The notes beneath the pieces are model-generated. The model made no database searches, was not told the DNA's origin, and saw nothing but the letters and a program-made list of their open reading frames with translations. This document shows positions 4,875 through 29,418 of a DNA stretch of 52,237 nucleotides, in pieces. Source of the stretch: Candidatus Polarisedimenticolia bacterium (GTDB lineage: Bacteria; Acidobacteriota; Polarisedimenticolia; Gp22-AA2; AA152); NCBI GenBank assembly GCA_035764505.1, contig DASTZC010000288.1, positions 1 to 52,237 of the forward strand, given 5' to 3'. How positions within the stretch are numbered: the stretch's first letter is position 1; each line of letters starts with the position of its first letter. Both the position numbers and the translations under genes were made by a program.

Positions 4875-6440
4875 ATGCCCAAAGAAGGAGACCTGGCCGC
4901 CTCTTCGTTCTGCGAGGTCCTGGCCGATTTGAGCCTGCGTCACGAGACCGGCGTCCTGCGTCTCAGCGCAACGACCCCTTCCAAATCGGTCTACCTGCAG
5001 GAAGGCAAGATCGTCTTCGCCTCCTCCACCGATCCGGATGATCGTCTCGGTGAACTCCTTCTCATGCGCGGGATCATCAACCGCGAGCAGCTGGACGAGG
5101 CTTCCAAGAGCCTGAAGCCTGGAAAGAGGCTCGGGACGGCGCTGGTGGAGCAAGGATTCCTGCCGGCGTCCGAACTTCCGAAGTGGGTTCGCGAACAGGT
5201 CAAGGAAATCCTCTTTTCGCTATTTTCCTGGACCGAGGGGAAATTCGTGTTCGAGGCAGGACCTTTCCCTTCCGACGAAGCGATCACGCTGCGCCTGTCC
5301 ACGCCCGAGGTTTTCCTGTCCGGCCTGAAGATGGTGCAGAAGTGGTCGGTGCTGCGCAAGGGAGCCGGGGAGATCCGCATCCCGTACCAGCTGGCAGGCG
5401 ATCCTCGCAGCATCCTGAAAGAAGTGTCCCTGGGGGAGGAGGAGGAAAGGCTGCTTCGGCTCCTGGAGTCGCGGCCGGTTACGATGGAGCAGGCGGCGCT
5501 CGAATCGGGGCTTACGACACTGAGGGTCTACCAGCTCTTCTTCGCCTTCCGGGTGCTCGGCGTGGTGGCCCCTGCGAAGTTACCGGCGCCAGCGCCGCCA
5601 CGTCCCGCGCCGCGTGCTTCCGAGACGCCCGCCACGCACGCGCCGCTCGAGGGCGCGCGTCGCGCCGAGGCGCTGCCCGCGACCCCTCCGAGCGATGCGC
5701 CGGTCGAAATCGCACCGGCTCTCGAAATTGAAATCGCTGACGAGACGCCCGTCGTGGCGCGCCCCATAGCCAAACCCCTACCTGCCGCTCGCGCGGCCGA
5801 GAAGCCCGCATCCACGAAGCCCGTGCCGCCGAAGATTGACACGGTGCCGGCGGCACCGACCCTGGAAGTTGGGTCGCAGACCGTCATGCTCAATCTGGCC
5901 GAGCTCCCGGGCGGCGAGCCCGCGGGCCAGGTGGCCGAGGTGGACGACTCTCCCATTCCCATCGTCCCGAATACCGTCGAGCTGGCGACCGACGAGCCGA
6001 TCCAGGCCATTGAGTTTCAGACGAAAGCCGAGGTTCCACCCTCGGCCTCTGTCCGCAGGCCTGCTGCGGTCCCAGAAGCTCCAGCCGTCGCCGTGGCGGC
6101 CAAGCCCAATACCGCGACCAAGCCCCCGATTCCGCGTCCGACCCGGCCGGCGGGCGCCGCCGGGGTCCCTCAAGGGCCGCCCCCCTTGCCCACCGCGGCG
6201 GACGCACCTGCCCTCTCGGCCGCCGCGGCTGCCGCCAAGCGGAACAAGCCCGACCTGAGAGTCGTCAAGCTGGACGATCGGCGGCTTGAAGGAGAGGGGC
6301 CCCAGCATCTCGAGGATCTGGTGCGACAGTGGCTTCTCAAGGGGTATCGCCTGGCGGGGGTCGTCCCGGCGCGTGCCTCGGGTCTGTTCGGCTCCTCCGG
6401 ATCCACCTACCTGATTTTTACGCGCGAAACCTCCGGCTGA
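4875..6440 (+). CDS. DUF4388 (PATAN-type) / MshEN-like protein with Pro-Ala linker
   Basis: The protein is about 521 residues and has three parts. Residues 1-50 match the start of DUF4388 (SFCEVLADLSLRHETGVLRL, then YLQEGKIVFA). Residues 56-125 look like a type II secretion ATPase N-domain (LGELLLMRGIINREQL, then LGTALVEQGFL). A winged-helix-like segment runs to about residue 230. A long Pro/Ala-rich, low-complexity linker (about 235-450) follows. A short folded end (YRLAGVVPA ... YLIFTRET) closes the protein. Such proteins are usually cytoplasmic signalling or motility scaffolds. ATG 4875 is used; TTG 4866 is an alternative because GGGGGA sits 5 bases before it. The gene is monocistronic, with its own promoter. 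Precise function is unknown. Confidence 0.7.
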   Translation: MPKEGDLAASSFCEVLADLSLRHETGVLRLSATTPSKSVYLQEGKIVFASSTDPDDRLGELLLMRGIINREQLDEASKSLKPGKRLGTALVEQGFLPASELPKWVREQVKEILFSLFSWTEGKFVFEAGPFPSDEAITLRLSTPEVFLSGLKMVQKWSVLRKGAGEIRIPYQLAGDPRSILKEVSLGEEEERLLRLLESRPVTMEQAALESGLTTLRVYQLFFAFRVLGVVAPAKLPAPAPPRPAPRASETPATHAPLEGARRAEALPATPPSDAPVEIAPALEIEIADETPVVARPIAKPLPAARAAEKPASTKPVPPKIDTVPAAPTLEVGSQTVMLNLAELPGGEPAGQVAEVDDSPIPIVPNTVELATDEPIQAIEFQTKAEVPPSASVRRPAAVPEAPAVAVAAKPNTATKPPIPRPTRPAGAAGVPQGPPPLPTAADAPALSAAAAAAKRNKPDLRVVKLDDRRLEGEGPQHLEDLVRQWLLKGYRLAGVVPARASGLFGSSGSTYLIFTRETSG

Positions 6441-19294: not shown

Positions 19295-20161
19295 TTGGCA
19301 ATGATGATCCTGATCACCGGGGCGGGGGGACGTGTGGGCACGTCGCTGGAGGCTGCCCTGCAGGCGAAGTATCCCGATCGGGTTGTGGCGGCCACCCGGG
19401 AAGAGATCGATTTGACCGATCCTTCCCGGGTGATCCTGGAGCTGGAGCGGCTGGATCCCCGCCCTACGGTGGTGATCAACTGCGCCGCGCGCACCCGACT
19501 CCCGGGCCCGGGCGATTCCCCGGAAGCCCTGGTGGAGGTCAACGCCCTCGGGGTCGAGACGCTGTCGCGCGCCACACGGGAGCTGGGGTGCCGGCTCATC
19601 CACCTGTCGAGCGTCGACGTCTTCTCGGGCAGCCGCAGGGAGGCTTATCGGGAGGAGGATCCACCCGATGCCGTGACCGCCTACGGGAAGAGCCGCGCGC
19701 TGGGAGAGACGGCGGCGGCGCGCGGCAACCCCGACCACCTGATCCTCCGGATGTCGGCGCTGTTCGGCGACGGCGCGGAGAATGACCCCCTGGAGATTAT
19801 CCACCGCTCTGTCCTGCGGGGAGAGCCGATTCCCTGGGAGGATCGGCGAATCACGCCTCTATGGATGGAGGACTTCCTGGGTGCGCTGGGGAGCATCTTG
19901 CGCAGCGAGTGGACCGGCGTGCTTCACCTGGGAAACGCCGAGTCGGCCCTGATCTCGGAAGTGGCTTCCGAAACGGCCCGCCTCCTCGGCGCTCCGCCTG
20001 TTCCCGATCTGATCGGCGGGTCGCCGGGTCCCGCCTCTTTTCATGAGAGCTCGGGACCGAATGCCGCGCTCGAATGTGCCCGGTTCACGTCCCTCAGCGG
20101 ACGCCGGACGAGGAGCTGGCGCCAGGCGCTGGCGGCTTCGCTCGAAAAGCGCGAGGATTGA
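19295..20161 (+). CDS. RmlD-like NAD(P)-dependent sugar-nucleotide reductase (SDR)
   Basis: The 288-residue protein is an extended short-chain dehydrogenase close in plan to dTDP-4-dehydrorhamnose reductase. It has the nucleotide-binding ITGAGGRVGTSL, the NCAARTR strand, the catalytic region LSSVDVFSG and the Tyr-Lys motif AYGKSRALGE. Its C-terminal part is not the usual RmlD end, so the exact substrate is open; the RmlD superfamily also includes non-catalytic subunits. AAGGAGG at 19279-19285 is 9 bases before the TTG at 19295, which I use; ATG 19301 is an alternative. The next gene starts immediately after its stop. It follows lptD by 25 bases on the same strand, so it may share that transcript. 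Confidence 0.75.
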   Translation: MAMMILITGAGGRVGTSLEAALQAKYPDRVVAATREEIDLTDPSRVILELERLDPRPTVVINCAARTRLPGPGDSPEALVEVNALGVETLSRATRELGCRLIHLSSVDVFSGSRREAYREEDPPDAVTAYGKSRALGETAAARGNPDHLILRMSALFGDGAENDPLEIIHRSVLRGEPIPWEDRRITPLWMEDFLGALGSILRSEWTGVLHLGNAESALISEVASETARLLGAPPVPDLIGGSPGPASFHESSGPNAALECARFTSLSGRRTRSWRQALAASLEKRED

Positions 20162-21151
20162 GTGCCTCCTGTCTTCGTCACCGGCGGCACCGGGTACCTG
20201 GGCTCCGCCCTCGTCTCGCGCCTGGCGCGCGAGGGCGAGGAGGTGGTGGTCCTCTGCCGCGATCCGGCCCGCTTCCTGCCTCCCGCCGTCTCGGTCCGCG
20301 CCGTGCAGGGGGATGTCGTCGATCGGGAATCGCTGCGCCGCGGTCTGCGCGGATGCGATCGGATCTTCCACGCCGCCGCGCATGTGAAGATGTGGGATTC
20401 CGACCCGCGGCGATTCGAGGCGATCAACGTCGGAGGATTGCAAAATATTCTCAGCGCCGCCGAGGAGCTGTCCGTCACCCGGATCGTCTACACCAGCTCC
20501 TTCATCGCCCTGGGGCCGACCGACGGCGCGACGGGCGACGAGTCCTGGATTCCCTCCCCGAGGACGTTCCACAACGAATACGAGCGCACCAAGGCCCTAT
20601 CCGACAGGGCGGCTCGTGAAGCCGCCGCGCACGGGGCGCCGATCGTCATTCTCTATCCGGGAGTGATCTACGGGCCGGGGCCGGCCACTGGCGGGAACCT
20701 GGTGGGAAAGACGGTCAGCGATTATCTGGAGCGCCGGCTGCCGGGGATCCTCGGCCCGGGCGACCGGCGCTTCTGCTACGCCTATGGAGCGGATGTCGTC
20801 CAGGGGCATCTGCAGGCGCTCAGATCAGCGCCCCCCGGCGGGCGCTTCATCCTGGGCGGTGAGAACCTGACGATGCTGCAGCTGATGGCGGAGCTGGAGC
20901 GTCTGACCAAGATCCCTCCGCCCCGCCGGCGTATCCCGTACTCCCTCGCGGGGCTGGTCGGTCGGATGCAGCGCTGGCGGGCGAACCTGACCGGCAAGGA
21001 GCCCGAGATCACCGACGAAGTGGTGAGCATCTATCGCCACGAGTGGGCTTATTCCAGCTTGAAAGCCCAGCGCGAGCTGGGGTACACCATCACGCCTTTT
21101 TCCCGGGGACTGGAGGAGACGGTGCGCTCGCTGCGCGAAGGCAGGACATGA
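20162..21151 (+). CDS. NAD(P)-dependent epimerase/dihydroflavonol-4-reductase-like SDR
   Basis: The 329-residue protein is an extended SDR with the Rossmann motif TGGTGYLGSALV at the N-terminus, FHAAAHVKMW, the catalytic strand YTSSFIALGPT, and the Tyr-x-x-x-Lys motif YERTK followed by LYPGVIYGPG. It resembles the dihydroflavonol-4-reductase/HpnA-type epimerases, which act on lipid-linked or nucleotide-linked sugars or on sterol-like substrates. The GTG start abuts the preceding stop with no gap, and the stop overlaps the next start (ATGA). This makes one transcription unit with the RmlD-like gene before it and the prenol-kinase-like gene after it. That context suggests a role in isoprenoid or glycolipid metabolism, but no direct evidence shows it. 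Confidence 0.8.
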   Translation: MPPVFVTGGTGYLGSALVSRLAREGEEVVVLCRDPARFLPPAVSVRAVQGDVVDRESLRRGLRGCDRIFHAAAHVKMWDSDPRRFEAINVGGLQNILSAAEELSVTRIVYTSSFIALGPTDGATGDESWIPSPRTFHNEYERTKALSDRAAREAAAHGAPIVILYPGVIYGPGPATGGNLVGKTVSDYLERRLPGILGPGDRRFCYAYGADVVQGHLQALRSAPPGGRFILGGENLTMLQLMAELERLTKIPPPRRRIPYSLAGLVGRMQRWRANLTGKEPEITDEVVSIYRHEWAYSSLKAQRELGYTITPFSRGLEETVRSLREGRT

Positions 21152-22506
21152 CGGGACGGGGTATCTCGGAAGATCTTCGGAAGTCGATTCACATCCTGAT
21201 GGTCGGCTTCGCGTTTCTTCTGAAGCATCTTCCCTGGTGGGGGGCCGCGCTGCTGGCGGCCGCCGCGGTGGCTTCAAATGCCACCTGGATCCCCCGGCTG
21301 CGCGGTGGAGCGCTCATGCGGGAGGGAGAGGAGCGATCGATCCTGCAGTCGGGGGTATGGCTCTATTCCGTCGCGGTGCTGGCTCTCATCCTCGTCTTCC
21401 CGCATCGACTGGAGATCGTCGCCTGCGCCTGGGGCATCCTCGCCCTCGGGGACGGCTTCGCCACTCTGGTAGGGCGCAGGCTGCCGCATCCGGCCCTGCT
21501 CTGGAACCGGCGCAAATCGTGGTCGGGGTTCATGTCCTTCTGTGTCGCCGGGACGCTGGGCGGCGCGGCGCTGCTGCGCTATGTGTCGGGGGGGGGCTTC
21601 GGAGGGTGGGATCGGACGCTGCTCATCGCGGCGGTCGCCACGGCGGCGTGCGCCGTGGTGGAGAGCCTTTCCCTGAAGCTGAACGACAATCTTTCGGTTC
21701 CATTTCTGGCGGCGGGAATCGTGGTGACGCTCGATTGGGTGAGGCCGGAGGTCTGGTCGGCGAACCGGGGAGTCCTGCAGCGCAATCTCCTCCTTGGACT
21801 GGCGGTGGTCGGGGCCTTCGCGCTGGCCGCGCGCGCGGCCCGGACCGTCTCCTGGTCGGGCGTGGCGGGAGGCATCCTGGTGGGTCTCCCGATCGCGACG
21901 TTCGGAGGGTTGCCGGCCTTCTGGGTCCTGGTCGAATTCTTCATTTTGGGGAGCGCTGCGACGCGGGTCGGCTGGAGCCGCAAGGAGCAGCGCGGAATCG
22001 CCCAGGAAGGGGAGGGGGCGCGCGGCGCGCTGCACGCGCTGGCCAACGTGTCGGTGCCGGCCTACCTCGCCTTTCTCTCCGGCTCGGTCGATGAGCCGAT
22101 GGCCTCGGCCCTGCGGCTCGCTTTCGTGGCCTCGCTGGCCACGGCCGCCTGCGACACGCTGGGATCGGAAATCGGCCAGCTCAGCCGGAGCAAGCCGTTT
22201 CTCATCACCCGCCTGCGCCGTGTCGCGGCGGGGACTCCCGGGGCGGTCTCGCTGCTGGGGACGGCCGCCGGAATCTGCGGTGCGGCGCTGGTGGGGGCCG
22301 CCGCCGCATTGCTGCAGATCATTCCCTGGAGCTGGATTCCCATCGTGACCGCCGCGGCCCTGCTCGGAGCGGTGCTGGAATCTGTGCTCGGCGCCACGGC
22401 CGAACCTGCCGACCTGATCGACAGCGAGACCATGAATTTTCTCAACACTCTGGCCGGGGCACTGGCCGCCGTGGCATTACTCCCTCTCGCAGGGGCCCTC
22501 TCTTGA
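21148..22506 (+). CDS. Fused prenol kinase-like / prenyl-phosphate kinase-like membrane protein (VTE5-VTE6-like fusion)
   Basis: The 452-residue, strongly hydrophobic protein joins two families. Residues 1-200 resemble dolichol/phytol kinases (VTE5 type) with LALGDGFATLVGRR (99-111), RRKSWSGF and VESLSLKLNDNLSVP (171-185). Residues 205-452 are a DUF92 domain (VTE6 type, phytyl-phosphate kinase): FFILGSAATRVGWSRK, HALANVSVPAYLA, CDTLGSEIGQLSRSKP (335-350) and GTPGAVSLLGT (362-372). In plants and cyanobacteria the two activities convert phytol to its diphosphate in two steps. One polypeptide could do both here, feeding the UbiA enzyme that follows. The ATG overlaps the SDR stop (ATGA) and its stop overlaps the UbiA start (TTGA). 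CTP as phosphate donor is family knowledge. Confidence 0.78.
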   Translation: MTGRGISEDLRKSIHILMVGFAFLLKHLPWWGAALLAAAAVASNATWIPRLRGGALMREGEERSILQSGVWLYSVAVLALILVFPHRLEIVACAWGILALGDGFATLVGRRLPHPALLWNRRKSWSGFMSFCVAGTLGGAALLRYVSGGGFGGWDRTLLIAAVATAACAVVESLSLKLNDNLSVPFLAAGIVVTLDWVRPEVWSANRGVLQRNLLLGLAVVGAFALAARAARTVSWSGVAGGILVGLPIATFGGLPAFWVLVEFFILGSAATRVGWSRKEQRGIAQEGEGARGALHALANVSVPAYLAFLSGSVDEPMASALRLAFVASLATAACDTLGSEIGQLSRSKPFLITRLRRVAAGTPGAVSLLGTAAGICGAALVGAAAALLQIIPWSWIPIVTAAALLGAVLESVLGATAEPADLIDSETMNFLNTLAGALAAVALLPLAGALS

Positions 22507-23543
22507 AGCCGACGCAGACCTTGGGCGAGCCGCGGAGCAGCGATCTGGGAATCGTTCCGGCGCGCTGGCGTGTCCTCCTGTCCTTTACGCGCCCCTTCAC
22601 CCTCCTGCCGCCGCTGCTGGGCGTCGTCTCAGGCGCGATCACCGCTTACGGGTCGGCCCACAATCCCGATCCGCTGCGCCGGGTGGACCTCAGCCTGCTG
22701 GCCACCGTGGGGCTCGGGTCGCTGTGCGCGGCGTTCCTGAACGCGGCTTCCAACGGGATCAACCAGGTCTACGACCTCGAGATCGATCGGAAGAACAAGC
22801 CCGGCAGGCCGCTGGTTTCCGGCGCTTTGGGGCTGCGCGAGGGGAAGCGCTTCTCGGCGCTCCTCTACGTGCTGGCCATCATGCCGACCTGGCTCGTCAT
22901 GACCTATCCGCATACCCGATGGTCGGAGCGGGTGTTCGCGCCGCCGCGCGCGCACGAATGCTTCTGGATTTTCGTGGCGGGACTTCTGTTCACGCTGATC
23001 TATTCCGTGCCTTCCTTCGGCAGGACCAAGCGCAACGGCTTCTGGGCCAATCTCACCATCGCCATTCCCCGCGGCTGCCTGCTGAAGGTCGCCGGCTGGT
23101 CCATGGTCGCGAGTGTCGCACATCCCGAGCCCTGGTACATCGGCAGCGTCTTCTTCCTGTTCCTCCTGGGAGCCAGCACCACCAAGGACTTCTCCGACAT
23201 GGAAGGCGACGCGGCGCACGGCTGCATCACGCTGCCGATTCGCTACGGTGTCCGGCGGGCAGCCTGGATGATCACTCCGTTCTTCATCTTTCCATGGCTG
23301 CTCCTGCCCCTTGGAGCCCATCTGCCCGATCCGGTGCACGCCGGCGGCAGGCTGCTTTCGGGAAACCCCACGATCCTCACCGCGGTGGGTCTGCTGCTGA
23401 CGCTGTGGGGATGCCTCACCTCCTACCTGGTCATCCGGCGGCCGGAGGAGCTGGCGACGACGGAGAACCATCCTTCCTGGACCCACATGTACCTGATGAT
23501 GATGCTTGCCCAGGTGGGATTTGCCGTCGCCTACCTGTTCTGA
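22503..23543 (+). CDS. UbiA-family prenyltransferase
   Basis: The 346-residue integral membrane protein has both Asp-rich motifs of the UbiA superfamily: NQVYDLEID (N87, D91, D95) followed by RKNKPGRP, and DFSDMEGD about residue 222. These bind Mg-prenyl diphosphate. Members attach prenyl chains to quinone head groups, chlorophyllide, heme or phenols. The subgroup is not clear, but the NxxxDxxxD(R)xxxK.GRP form fits chlorophyll-synthase/homogentisate-type and general polyprenyltransferases. It starts at TTG 22503, overlapping the previous stop (TTGA). The adjacency to a prenol/prenyl-phosphate kinase fusion suggests that it uses salvaged prenyl diphosphate. No other quinone-biosynthesis gene is in the window. 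Confidence 0.88.
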   Translation: MKPTQTLGEPRSSDLGIVPARWRVLLSFTRPFTLLPPLLGVVSGAITAYGSAHNPDPLRRVDLSLLATVGLGSLCAAFLNAASNGINQVYDLEIDRKNKPGRPLVSGALGLREGKRFSALLYVLAIMPTWLVMTYPHTRWSERVFAPPRAHECFWIFVAGLLFTLIYSVPSFGRTKRNGFWANLTIAIPRGCLLKVAGWSMVASVAHPEPWYIGSVFFLFLLGASTTKDFSDMEGDAAHGCITLPIRYGVRRAAWMITPFFIFPWLLLPLGAHLPDPVHAGGRLLSGNPTILTAVGLLLTLWGCLTSYLVIRRPEELATTENHPSWTHMYLMMMLAQVGFAVAYLF

Positions 23544-23544
23544 T

Positions 23545-24801
23545 TTGCGAAATCGAACGCGTCCACTGAAGCCCTTCCTGCGCTGCGCCCTGATGGCGGC
23601 GCTCTGCGTCCTGCTGTCGGCCGCACGTCCGGCGCCTCCGGCCGATTCAATCCTGGTGCTGATTTCGATCGACGGAATGCGCTATGACTATCCCGAGCGC
23701 GCCCGGGCCGGGACCTTTTCGAACCTCGCCGCGGGAGGCGTGCGGGCGCGCCGTCTGATTCCCCCGTTCCCGGCCTCCACGTTCCCATCCCATGCGACGC
23801 TGGCTACCGGCTGCTATCCGGAGCGCCACGGCATCCTCAACAATCGCTTCCTGGACCGGGACCGCGGCGAGTTCGATCGATCGGAGGATCCCGGATGGCT
23901 GGAATGCGAGCCGCTCTGGGTGACCGCCGAGAAGCAGGGAATCCGCAGTGCCGTGCTGAACTGGATCGGCTCATACGGAGCGTGGCGGGGCACGGCGGCG
24001 TCGCTGCACGCGTCCGGATACCAATCCCTGACCGATCGTGAATCGGTCCGGCGCATCCTGGCGTGGCTGGATCTTCCGCCCCGCGACCGCCCGGGAATGA
24101 TCCTGGCCTATTTCACCGGAGTCGATCATGCCGGCCACGCCGAAGGTCCGGATTCGCCGGAAGTGGACCGCCGGGTGCTTTCGGTGGACCGCACCTTGAA
24201 GCTCCTCCTGACAGAAAGCGCCAGGCGCGGGCTCTCGGAGCGGCTCAACCTCATGGTTGTTGCCGATCATGGCATGGCTGCAATCGTCGGCAGGGTCGAT
24301 CCCGGATCGGCTCTGGCGCGGGCCGGGATCCGGCATCGCCTTCTCCCTTCGGGCGGAACGGCGAATCTCTATCTCGGGCGCGCCGGCGACCGGAGCAAGG
24401 CGCAGGCGCTGCTGGGTCGCCTGACGCACCTCGAGGTTTACCCGGGACCGGAATTGCCCAGAGACCTGCGCTACGGCTTTCCTTCCCGGACGGGGGATCT
24501 GGTGCTGCTAACCTCGCCCGGTTACGAAATCGGGCGGGAAAGGGAGGAGACCTCGAGGGGAATGCACGGCTTCCGTGGTACCGAGCCTTCGATGGCCGGC
24601 ATTTTCTATGCTCGTGGTCCGGCATTCGTCGCGGGAAGTGAAATCGATCGGCTGGAGGCGGTGGATGTGGCGCCGCTGGCCTGTGCCGTGCTCGGGATAC
24701 CGGCTTCTCCCGACACGCAGGGACGCGTTCCCGCAGGGATCCTCAGGAACTTTCACCGTCCGGTCCGAAAGGCTCCCCGACCGTCTGGCGCGCGACCCTG
24801 A
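23545..24801 (+). CDS. Secreted type I phosphodiesterase/nucleotide pyrophosphatase (ENPP-like)
   Basis: The 418-residue protein belongs to the alkaline-phosphatase superfamily. An N-terminal signal peptide (RNRTRPLKPF, then LMAALCVLLSAARPAPPA) sends it to the periplasm. The metal and nucleophile motifs are in order: ISIDGMRYDY; PASTFPSHATLATG, in which the Thr before FPSH is the likely nucleophile; GCYPERHGI; VDHAGH; ADHGM; and MHGF near the end. Such enzymes hydrolyse phosphodiester or pyrophosphate bonds in nucleotides or lipids. TTG 23545 is chosen because it gives a complete signal peptide; ATG 23593 would leave a truncated one. The gene overlaps the convergent grpE by 59 bases. It follows UbiA by one base, so it probably belongs to the same transcript. 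Confidence 0.85.
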   Translation: MRNRTRPLKPFLRCALMAALCVLLSAARPAPPADSILVLISIDGMRYDYPERARAGTFSNLAAGGVRARRLIPPFPASTFPSHATLATGCYPERHGILNNRFLDRDRGEFDRSEDPGWLECEPLWVTAEKQGIRSAVLNWIGSYGAWRGTAASLHASGYQSLTDRESVRRILAWLDLPPRDRPGMILAYFTGVDHAGHAEGPDSPEVDRRVLSVDRTLKLLLTESARRGLSERLNLMVVADHGMAAIVGRVDPGSALARAGIRHRLLPSGGTANLYLGRAGDRSKAQALLGRLTHLEVYPGPELPRDLRYGFPSRTGDLVLLTSPGYEIGREREETSRGMHGFRGTEPSMAGIFYARGPAFVAGSEIDRLEAVDVAPLACAVLGIPASPDTQGRVPAGILRNFHRPVRKAPRPSGARP

Positions 24802-25381
24802 CCTGGGCAGGTCGCAGGATCGCCCCGTCGATCGTATAGCCCCTCCGGATTTCCTCGAGAATCATGTCGTGATCGTCGGGTCCTTCCGCAGGGGTCACCG
24901 CCACCGCCTCGGCGCGCTCGGGGTCGAAGCGGGTCCCGGCCATTTCCATGGGCTGGACTCCCTGTCGCGCCAAAATAGCCAGATACTGCTCGCGAATCTT
25001 GAGCAGTCCGTCCCGCAAGGGGGAGGAGGAACCCTCGAGCTCGGCGGAAAAGACAGCCCGATCCAGGCTGTCGCCCACCTCGAGAAAATCGCGGAGCCGA
25101 CTCTCCAGCTCGGAGCGGGTGCGCCTTTCCATCTCCTTGCGCAGGCGCGCCCGGAAATCGTCGGCCTCCTTCTCGCGGCGCCGCAGGAGGTCCAGCGCCT
25201 CGGCCAGCTTCGACTCCGCAGCCTCGGCGCGACCTTCCAGCTCGCGGAGCATCGAAGGCTTGCGGTCGGTGGGAGGGGGATCTTCATCTCCCGGTTCCGG
25301 GCGATCGAACCGCGGGCGGCGATCGGTGACCCGAATCGGGACCGAATCGGAATCGGGACTCTGTTTCGGGCGCTCGGCCAT
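24743..25381 (-). CDS. grpE: Nucleotide exchange factor GrpE
   Basis: The 212-residue protein is the DnaK nucleotide-exchange factor. A charged, disordered N-terminus is followed by a coiled coil (about residues 44-90, with SMLRELEGRAEAAESKLAEA). The conserved GrpE core follows: DSLDRAVF, REQYLAILARQGVQPM, FDPERAEAVAV, and the C-terminal signature RRGYTIDGAILRPAQVRVA. The ATG at 25379-25381 has GAGG 6 bases upstream. It is the last gene of the clpB-hsp20-htpX-grpE unit; dnaK and dnaJ are not in the window. Its 3' end overlaps the convergent phosphodiesterase gene by 59 bases. Confidence 0.92.
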   Translation of the reverse strand: MAERPKQSPDSDSVPIRVTDRRPRFDRPEPGDEDPPPTDRKPSMLRELEGRAEAAESKLAEALDLLRRREKEADDFRARLRKEMERRTRSELESRLRDFLEVGDSLDRAVFSAELEGSSSPLRDGLLKIREQYLAILARQGVQPMEMAGTRFDPERAEAVAVTPAEGPDDHDMILEEIRRGYTIDGAILRPAQVRVARQTVGEPFGPDGESS

Positions 25382-25389
25382 CGGAAGCC

Positions 25390-26244
25390 TCAGGAGCGGG
25401 CGAGAAGGCGCCGGATGCGCTCGCCGATGGGAGGATGGGTGCTGAACAGGCTCATCCAGCTCGCGGCGGAGAACGGCTTTACGATAAACAGATGGTTCGT
25501 CGCGGGATTGCTCGCGGCGACCATCGGGACTTGACGGGAATACTGCTCGATCTTCTCGAGGGCGCGGGCGAGGCCCTGCGGGCGGCCGATCATCTCGGCG
25601 GCGCTCTCGTCGGCCTGGTATTCGCGCGAGCGGGAGACCGCCATCTGGATGAGCATGGCGGCCAGGGGGGCCACGATGGCTGCGACCAGAAGACCGAGGA
25701 CTCCTCCGCCGCGCTCCCCGTCGCGGCGATCACCCATGCCGCCGAAAATCGCCGCGAACCTCGCCATGTTGGCCAGGAACATGATGGCTCCCGCCAGGGT
25801 CGCGGCCACGGAGCTGATCAGGATGTCACGGTTGCGCACGTGGCTCAGCTCGTGGGCGAGGACGCCCTCCAGCTCCTGGTCGTCCAGAATCTCCAGAATT
25901 CCCTGGGTGACTGCTACCGCGGCGTGCTCCGGATCTCTTCCCGTTGCGAAGGCATTCGGGGCCCTTTCCGGAAGGAGGTAGAGGCGGGGCATCGGCAGCG
26001 AGGCGTTGGCGCACAGCCGCTGCACGATGGCGTGCAGCCGGGGGGCTTCGCCAGGGCTCAGAGGCTTCGCCCGGGTTGCCGCCAGGACCATCTTGTCCGA
26101 GAACCAGTAGCTGAAGAAGTTCATCCCCGCGGCAAGGACCAGCGCCACCAGGGCGCCGCCGCGCCCGCCCAGAAACCCTCCGACACCAACCATGAGGACC
26201 GTGAGCAGGCCCAGAAGGAACGCGGTCTTTACGGAGTTCATCAT
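25390..26244 (-). CDS. htpX: Membrane zinc metalloprotease HtpX
   Basis: The 284-residue protein has the M48 peptidase motif HELSH at residues 131-135, followed by VRNRD. Further on is the third zinc ligand region YQADESAAEM. Four hydrophobic segments are visible: two at the N-terminus (residues 8-24 and about 30-46) and two after the HExxH site. HtpX is a heat-induced inner-membrane protease that works with FtsH in membrane protein quality control. Its place between hsp20 and grpE in a heat-shock operon fits. It starts at ATG 26242-26244; a second ATG follows directly. The grpE start is 8 bases after its stop. Confidence 0.93.
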   Translation of the reverse strand: MMNSVKTAFLLGLLTVLMVGVGGFLGGRGGALVALVLAAGMNFFSYWFSDKMVLAATRAKPLSPGEAPRLHAIVQRLCANASLPMPRLYLLPERAPNAFATGRDPEHAAVAVTQGILEILDDQELEGVLAHELSHVRNRDILISSVAATLAGAIMFLANMARFAAIFGGMGDRRDGERGGGVLGLLVAAIVAPLAAMLIQMAVSRSREYQADESAAEMIGRPQGLARALEKIEQYSRQVPMVAASNPATNHLFIVKPFSAASWMSLFSTHPPIGERIRRLLARS

Positions 26245-26289
26245 CGATTCATCGTCTCCGGCGCTTCTGGCGCGCCTCCACCGGCGCGG

Positions 26290-26730
26290 CTACCGCGCCT
26301 CCACTTTGATCGGTTTAATCGAGCTCGCCGGCTTCTTCGGGAGCACCACTTCGAGTACCCCGTGCCTCAGCTCCGCGCGGATTCCCCCTTGTTCGATGTT
26401 GGGCGGCAGCTCGAAGGAGCGGTGATACCTTCCGCTGGGCCGCTCCCTCAAGAGGGTCTCGGAGCCGCCCTGTCCCGCGTCGGCCCGGCGCTCCCCCTGG
26501 AGCGTGAGGCGGTCTCCTTCAATGCGGAGCTCGATCTGCTCCAGCACGACCCCGGGAAGATCCACCCGCAACACGGTACGGTCCTCCGCTTCGTGGATGT
26601 CCACTGCCGGCACCCATGCGATGCCGTCGGCACCTCGGGCGCCGGTCGGCCCCGGATCCGGTCGATGGGCCGGGTTCATGGCGTCGGGAAATCTTCCCCG
26701 ATCGCTCGGAACATCACGGATGACACTCAT
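26290..26730 (-). CDS. Hsp20-family small heat-shock protein
   Basis: The 146-residue protein has an alpha-crystallin domain. After a short N-terminal arm come WVPAVDIHEAEDRTVLRVDLPGV, a beta-strand region (IEGDRLTLQGERR), the SGRYHRSFELPPNI segment and the end of the domain (AELRHGVLEVVLPKK). A C-terminal SSIKPIKVE carries the I-x-V-type tail, which mediates oligomer assembly. It holds unfolded proteins in an ATP-independent way for ClpB/DnaK. The ATG is preceded by GGAGAGGAG. The gene is second in the heat-shock operon. An 84-base gap separates it from clpB upstream; no clear promoter is seen there. Confidence 0.93.
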   Translation of the reverse strand: MSVIRDVPSDRGRFPDAMNPAHRPDPGPTGARGADGIAWVPAVDIHEAEDRTVLRVDLPGVVLEQIELRIEGDRLTLQGERRADAGQGGSETLLRERPSGRYHRSFELPPNIEQGGIRAELRHGVLEVVLPKKPASSIKPIKVEAR

Positions 26731-26814
26731 CGGCTCCTCTCCACCCCGCGGCTCCGGGTCGCCGCATCGCCTGCAACGGTATCGCAGCGAGTGTAATGGC
26801 GCTCAACCAGGGAA

Positions 26815-29418
<2,604 letters not shown>

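Follow-up and report, generated by a model that had tools for sequence, protein, structure and literature searches.

A SEC59-like/DUF92 fusion protein encoded with an oxidoreductase and a UbiA-family prenyltransferase in Acidobacteriota: a predicted dual prenol and prenyl-phosphate kinase

We asked whether one bacterial polypeptide could carry out both phosphorylations that convert a free prenol to its diphosphate, and whether the prenyltransferase encoded directly behind it would use the product. The question was raised by contig DASTZC010000288.1 (assembly GCA_035764505.1) of Candidatus Polarisedimenticolia bacterium, whose genome is 4.46 Mb; the whole stretch of DNA analyzed, hereafter the window, is 52,237 nucleotides long. 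The relatives named in the comparisons are Acidobacteriota metagenome bins. The original prediction had described a protein with a dolichol/phytol-kinase-like half and a DUF92 half next to a UbiA enzyme, and had read the pair as two-step phosphorylation followed by transfer to a ring. Judged from sequence analysis, a dual prenol/prenyl-phosphate kinase that would feed the UbiA protein, with an acceptor other than a respiratory quinone, is the best explanation, and we hold it with moderate confidence. The genes concerned are as follows.

20162–21151, plus strand: extended short-chain dehydrogenase/reductase (SDR) oxidoreductase, a candidate prenal/prenol oxidoreductase (PF01370, E-value 1e-31)
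21148–22506, plus strand: fused membrane protein of 452 amino acids, predicted to join a SEC59-like prenol-kinase half to a DUF92 prenyl-phosphate-kinase half
21148–21801, plus strand: N-terminal half of the fusion (residues 1–218), SEC59/VTE5/FOLK-like by alignment and by its profile, which matches a SEC59-like protein encoded on its own
21805–22425, plus strand: C-terminal half of the fusion, DUF92/COG1836 (VTE6-like), by PF01940 and by alignment with cyanobacterial and archaeal DUF92 proteins
22503–23543, plus strand: UbiA-superfamily prenyltransferase, on the side of digeranylgeranylglyceryl phosphate (DGGGP) synthase and ChlG (PF01040, E-value 6e-32)

The fusion frame starts with ATG at 21148 and ends with TGA at 22504–22506, and the TTG start of the UbiA frame at 22503 overlaps this stop as TTGA. 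The coordinates and the overlap given by the original prediction were thus right, and another member of the genus (L003) has the same TTGA junction. The prediction had overlooked the upstream side, where the SDR stop overlaps the fusion start as ATGA (21148–21151).

The assignment of the C-terminal half to DUF92 was confirmed. PF01940 covered residues 220–424 with 167.6 bits against a cut-off of 27.5 (E-value 4e-49), and this is the single DUF92 protein of the host genome. Conserved residues of this half are K279, R292, D336-T337, E341, G362-T363, S368, S412, and N430; all residues that are invariant across acidobacterial, Glassbacteria, cyanobacterial, and archaeal DUF92 proteins are present in it. 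COG1836 was predicted earlier to act in phytol-phosphate metabolism (PMC3223725), and DUF92 has been tied to isoprenoid genes in archaea (PMC5898192).

The dolichol/phytol-kinase-like reading of the N-terminal half was supported by profile comparison. The profile of this half matched L123, a SEC59-like protein encoded on its own in a Methanosarcina genome, over the catalytic core with 96.1% probability (E-value 3e-9), and the alignment paired the GD, K..G, ES, and DN positions. L123 itself was labelled SEC59-like by its motif and a sub-threshold PF01148 match. The match to the host's own CdsA, the only PF01148 protein found in its genome, was weaker (28%, E-value 6e-4). Additionally, CTP_transf_1 (PF01148) was weakly matched by 3 of 21 orthologous N-terminal halves, with a best E-value of 1.5e-4. 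The conserved residues of this half are R11-K12..H15, G101-D102, W119-N120..K123, E172-S173, and D180-N181; R11, H15, and E172 do not vary among the aligned fusions, nearly all of which have K or R at position 12. An Arg-Lys-His clamp has been described for PfPolK, whose prenol kinase activity was tested with labelled farnesol, geranylgeraniol, and cytidine triphosphate (CTP) (PMC10849223). By a residue-by-residue mapping that we infer, the RK..H motif of the N-terminal half appears to correspond to this clamp, and its conserved Glu to that of PfPolK.

Next, the fusion was considered as a whole. AlphaFold modelled it confidently across both halves, with a predicted local distance difference test score (pLDDT) of 90.7 and a predicted template modelling score of 0.90; the N-terminal half alone gave a pLDDT of 89.7. 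Sequence searches of PDB returned no match, whether the query was the fusion or the profile of either half. The two halves showed a weak similarity to each other (E-value 0.004) in which D102 is aligned opposite aspartate 336; this is suggestive, but not proof, that they are mutually related. Nine residues (R11, H15, D102, K123, E172, D180, D336, T337, and E341) were kept in 29 of 29 aligned fusions of the phylum. The protein was matched in 48 of 60 related genomes, with a single near-full-length match in 34, one of which carries an internal TAG. Because such single matches recur in so many related genomes, an assembly artefact or a chance joining of the halves was excluded. The original prediction had also proposed a survey of DUF92 fusions; besides these 34 genomes, a phylum-wide draw showed DUF92 over the cut-off in 116 of 297 genomes. 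More than two-thirds of the DUF92 open frames listed exceed 400 amino acids, the length needed for a fusion, with open-frame length being an upper bound only; the short frames of this draw mostly fall in one family. In Candidatus Glassbacteria (L084), the halves are split into adjacent genes (4876–5460 and 5495–6226, about 30 bases apart), and the order there is SDR, kinase half, kinase half, UbiA.

The fusion architecture is already known from archaea. A SEC59-like domain fused to COG1836 was reported for Methanosarcina as a predicted isoprenoid kinase (arCOG02245 with an extra N-terminal domain, Mbar_A3310; PMC5898192), with the same two-domain order and the same predicted kinase step as the acidobacterial protein. 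The reported neighbor of archaeal COG1836 is uppS (PMC5898192), whereas the acidobacterial fusion lies with the SDR and UbiA genes. Six fusions of the Methanosarcina/ANME-2 type lack the two aspartates and the clamp Arg-Lys in their N-terminal half, although the alignment of these divergent archaeal halves is uncertain. The aspartates of Mbar_A3310 are stated to be conserved (PMC5898192); the archaeal fusions compared here are other loci. In L082, L083, L085, L086, L089, and L091, the catalytic aspartates and the clamp of the N-terminal half are apparently lost and the DUF92 half is intact, and the stand-alone protein L123 lies elsewhere in one genome whose fusion N-terminal half looks degraded. 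A Methanoperedens fusion kept the aspartates, with the clamp and the lysine at 123 gone. A Heimdallarchaeota fusion, like those of Acidobacteriota, kept the aspartates, the clamp, and the lysine at 123. As a variant, the acidobacterial cassette combines two halves that look catalytic by their residues with neighboring SDR and UbiA genes.

The linkage of the fusion with these two genes was then analyzed. The order SDR-fusion-UbiA recurs in Vicinamibacteria loci and in many other Acidobacteria loci. A Thermoanaerobaculia locus showed the SDR and the fusion before the contig ends, and in Polarisedimenticola the two lie together with no UbiA gene nearby. Downstream of the fusion in Candidatus Polarisedimenticola (L060, 10426–13111), frames resembling a type III polyketide synthase, an isoprenylcysteine methyltransferase, and a geranylgeranyl reductase dependent on flavin adenine dinucleotide were seen by eye. 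Of the 48 genomes that match the fusion, 42 also have an orthologue of the UbiA gene; the 12 genomes that lack a match have none (Fisher P 1e-8). In 32 of these 42 genomes, no more than about 3 kb separates the orthologue from the fusion; in the other 10 it lies on a different contig. Similarly, all 36 genomes with an SDR orthologue carry the fusion, none belongs to the 12 fusion-less genomes, and the SDR gene adjoins the fusion on the same contig in 35 of the 36. Gene order thus ties the fusion to the UbiA gene, and so does co-occurrence, including in genomes where the two are not adjacent. In some relatives, an insert of about 2–3 kb separates the fusion from the UbiA gene (L059, 9300–11246; L066, 9291–12057); one frame in such a gap resembles, by eye, an anti-sigma-factor-type zinc finger.

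The model nearest to the SDR protein is HpnA (TIGR03466), which it missed with 235 bits against a curated cut-off of 367.65, and its best solved match is a "putative oxidoreductase" (PDB 3wj7, E-value 5e-35).

The UbiA protein matched PF01040 with 111.3 bits against a cut-off of 34.2 and carries the Asp-rich motifs NQVYDLEID and KDFSDMEGD. Among solved proteins it comes closest to DGGGP synthase (PDB 6m31, E-value 4.5e-18) and chlorophyll a synthase (9sas, E-value 3e-14). The nearest curated models, PRK12884, ChlG, and DGGGP synthase, are all far below cut-off (ChlG 92.2 against 313 bits; DGGGP synthase 68.1 against 296), and quinone-type models were missed (MenA 21 against 277 bits; MqnP 17 against 430). 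By sequence, the protein appears to lie nearer DGGGP synthase and (bacterio)chlorophyll synthase, its closest solved and curated relatives, yet it scores far below their curated cut-offs. The host genome encodes four other UbiA proteins: one heme-o synthase, two resembling decaprenyl-phosphate phosphoribosyltransferase (DPPR synthase; L055, 1312–2262, over a curated cut-off, and L056, 1027–2370), and one of 4-hydroxybenzoate/MqnP type, which adjoins a gene that is UbiX-like by eye. Because this last protein exists elsewhere in the genome, the quinone role is more likely its own; a quinone role as the default for the operon UbiA was rejected, and the operon protein is probably not a quinone enzyme. 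The two-step kinase and transfer scheme of the original prediction was partly supported, by families, residues, and linkage, but not in the quinone role that it implied.

Three other routes were also rejected. An archaeal-type ether lipid route was set aside because no PcrB/geranylgeranylglyceryl phosphate (GGGP) synthase was found in 21 related genomes, the host genome included. A tocopherol route was dropped since no tocopherol cyclase (PF14249) was found in 16 genomes, where the control set held no over-cut-off positive and the sensitivity of the search is unproven. An ebo operon was rejected by the EboC model (28.5 against a cut-off of 250 bits). The ebo operon, with UbiA-like EboC and PF01663 protein EboF (PMC5133447), likewise brings a UbiA-family gene and a PF01663 gene close together; no other ebo genes were seen among the immediate neighbors examined at the acidobacterial locus.

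These observations are consistent with the following mechanism. The 452-residue protein would be a bifunctional membrane kinase, probably CTP-dependent. The SDR protein probably interconverts a prenol and its aldehyde and may supply the alcohol by reducing the prenal, a direction that we infer from plant FLDH. The N-terminal half would convert a free allylic prenol, most likely of C15–C20, to the prenyl monophosphate, with the phosphate probably drawn from CTP, and the DUF92 half would convert the monophosphate to the diphosphate. The translationally coupled UbiA protein would then use this diphosphate to prenylate an acceptor other than a respiratory quinone. Plant VTE5, VTE6, and FOLK prefer CTP (PMC9782597), and in plants farnesal is first reduced by FLDH, and FOLK then phosphorylates the farnesol (PMC13415981). 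Arabidopsis FLDH (At4g33360) is a Rossmann-fold enzyme using nicotinamide adenine dinucleotide that stands ahead of the prenol kinase in farnesal salvage (PMC13415981), a place that the SDR protein may share by analogy. The plant and cyanobacterial kinases VTE5, VTE6, and FOLK belong to the same two families as the halves of the fusion, with the same two proposed steps, and in plants the VTE5/VTE6 product feeds phytyl transferases of the UbiA superfamily. However, the plant kinases are separate proteins, whereas the acidobacterial one is a single polypeptide in a genome without a detected tocopherol cyclase. The three genes would form a cassette for salvaging prenals and prenols and attaching them, with the plant set of FLDH, VTE5/FOLK, VTE6, and a VTE2/ChlG-type transferase as a parallel. 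UbiA enzymes related to the operon UbiA use C20 donors. Since they do, and phytol would be common where plant matter decays, our guess for the substrate is phytol, geranylgeraniol, or another C20 alcohol.

Several points weigh against this mechanism. The N-terminal half of the window's fusion had no Pfam or NCBIfam match, PF01148 included, and Foldseek searches with this half and with the whole model gave no significant solved match (CdsA 4q2e surfaced at an E-value of 2.6 only and was not counted as evidence). Relatives of SEC59 include kinases of other lipids. The DUF92 half missed the curated cut-off of TIGR00297 (160.4 against 205.85 bits), and the UbiA gene is missing from six genomes where the fusion or DUF92 was matched. 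The co-occurrence statistic was not corrected for shared ancestry. Furthermore, the host genome has three polyprenyl-synthase genes, so that a prenyl diphosphate could be made without salvage.

The surroundings of the cassette bear on the alternative that survives best. Two further genes flank it.

19295–20161, plus strand: RmlD-like SDR, the first of two SDR genes and a probable operon member (PF04321, E-value 4e-43)
23506–24801, plus strand: PF01663 phosphodiesterase/alkaline-phosphatase-like protein, possibly the last operon gene (PF01663, E-value 2e-69)

The end of the RmlD-like gene directly precedes the SDR gene, with LptD just upstream, and LptD, RmlD-like, SDR, fusion, and UbiA genes look like one transcription unit. 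A scan of the region found no sigma-70-like promoter, such a scan being weak evidence. The PF01663 frame as listed overlaps the UbiA gene, its true start lying further downstream. After the operon, on the opposite strand (24743–29418), frames resembling GrpE, HtpX, Hsp20, and ClpB were seen by eye, in an order kept in many relatives. The kinase could instead recharge a long-chain polyprenol carrier (undecaprenol/dolichol type) for envelope glycans, with the two SDR proteins and the UbiA protein modifying a polyprenyl-linked sugar. SEC59 is the dolichol-kinase family, the operon adjoins LptD and the RmlD-like gene, a PF01663 phosphatase-like gene follows the UbiA gene in part of the relatives, and the uppS neighborhood of archaeal DUF92 genes (PMC5898192) fits as well. 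However, the DUF92 half would yield a diphosphate, and a carrier recharged from its alcohol has no need of one. The operon UbiA is not of the DPPR-synthase type, of which two lie elsewhere in the genome, and the RmlD-like gene holds its position in only part of the relatives and is not a constant neighbor of the fusion. We regard this carrier role as unlikely, though it deserves more weight than the two explanations below.

The halves might also have been joined without joint function, one of them being no longer catalytic and the link to the UbiA gene reflecting shared operon regulation only. The Methanosarcinales fusions give this some substance; because their N-terminal halves appear to have lost catalytic residues, a fused protein need not have two active halves. 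Nevertheless, the nine residues kept throughout the fusions of the phylum, the co-occurrence with the UbiA gene even when unlinked, and the separate adjacent halves of Glassbacteria argue against it, and we consider it quite improbable. Slightly less probable still is a CTP-dependent kinase of another lipid (e.g., diacylglycerol-kinase-like) beside a UbiA protein that produces a membrane lipid of the isoprenoid-ether kind: the N-terminal half shares a superfamily with CdsA and CTP-dependent lipid kinases and DGGGP synthase is the best solved relative of the UbiA protein, but the related genomes lack GGGP synthase, and prenols are favored by the fusion to DUF92, whose plant members are tied to prenyl phosphates.

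According to reviews, few prenol and prenyl-phosphate kinases have been identified, mainly in plants and cyanobacteria (PMC9782597, PMC13415981). In the literature searched, no paper was found that describes the cassette or connects bacterial UbiA or SDR genes with DUF92 fusions. The SDR-fusion-UbiA trio is little explored in non-photosynthetic bacteria, although its parts and the fusion are of known kinds. We tentatively suggest, as a possibility, that non-photosynthetic Acidobacteriota use the SDR protein, the single-chain dual kinase, and the UbiA protein to recover alcohols of the phytol/geranylgeraniol type, possibly from decaying plants, and to attach them to a membrane metabolite. One bacterial protein that apparently retains both steps and is coupled to its likely user enzyme would be a convenient test system for the second kinase step, and the cassette would serve the study of bacterial isoprenoid salvage and the discovery of a new prenylated metabolite from an orphan UbiA enzyme.

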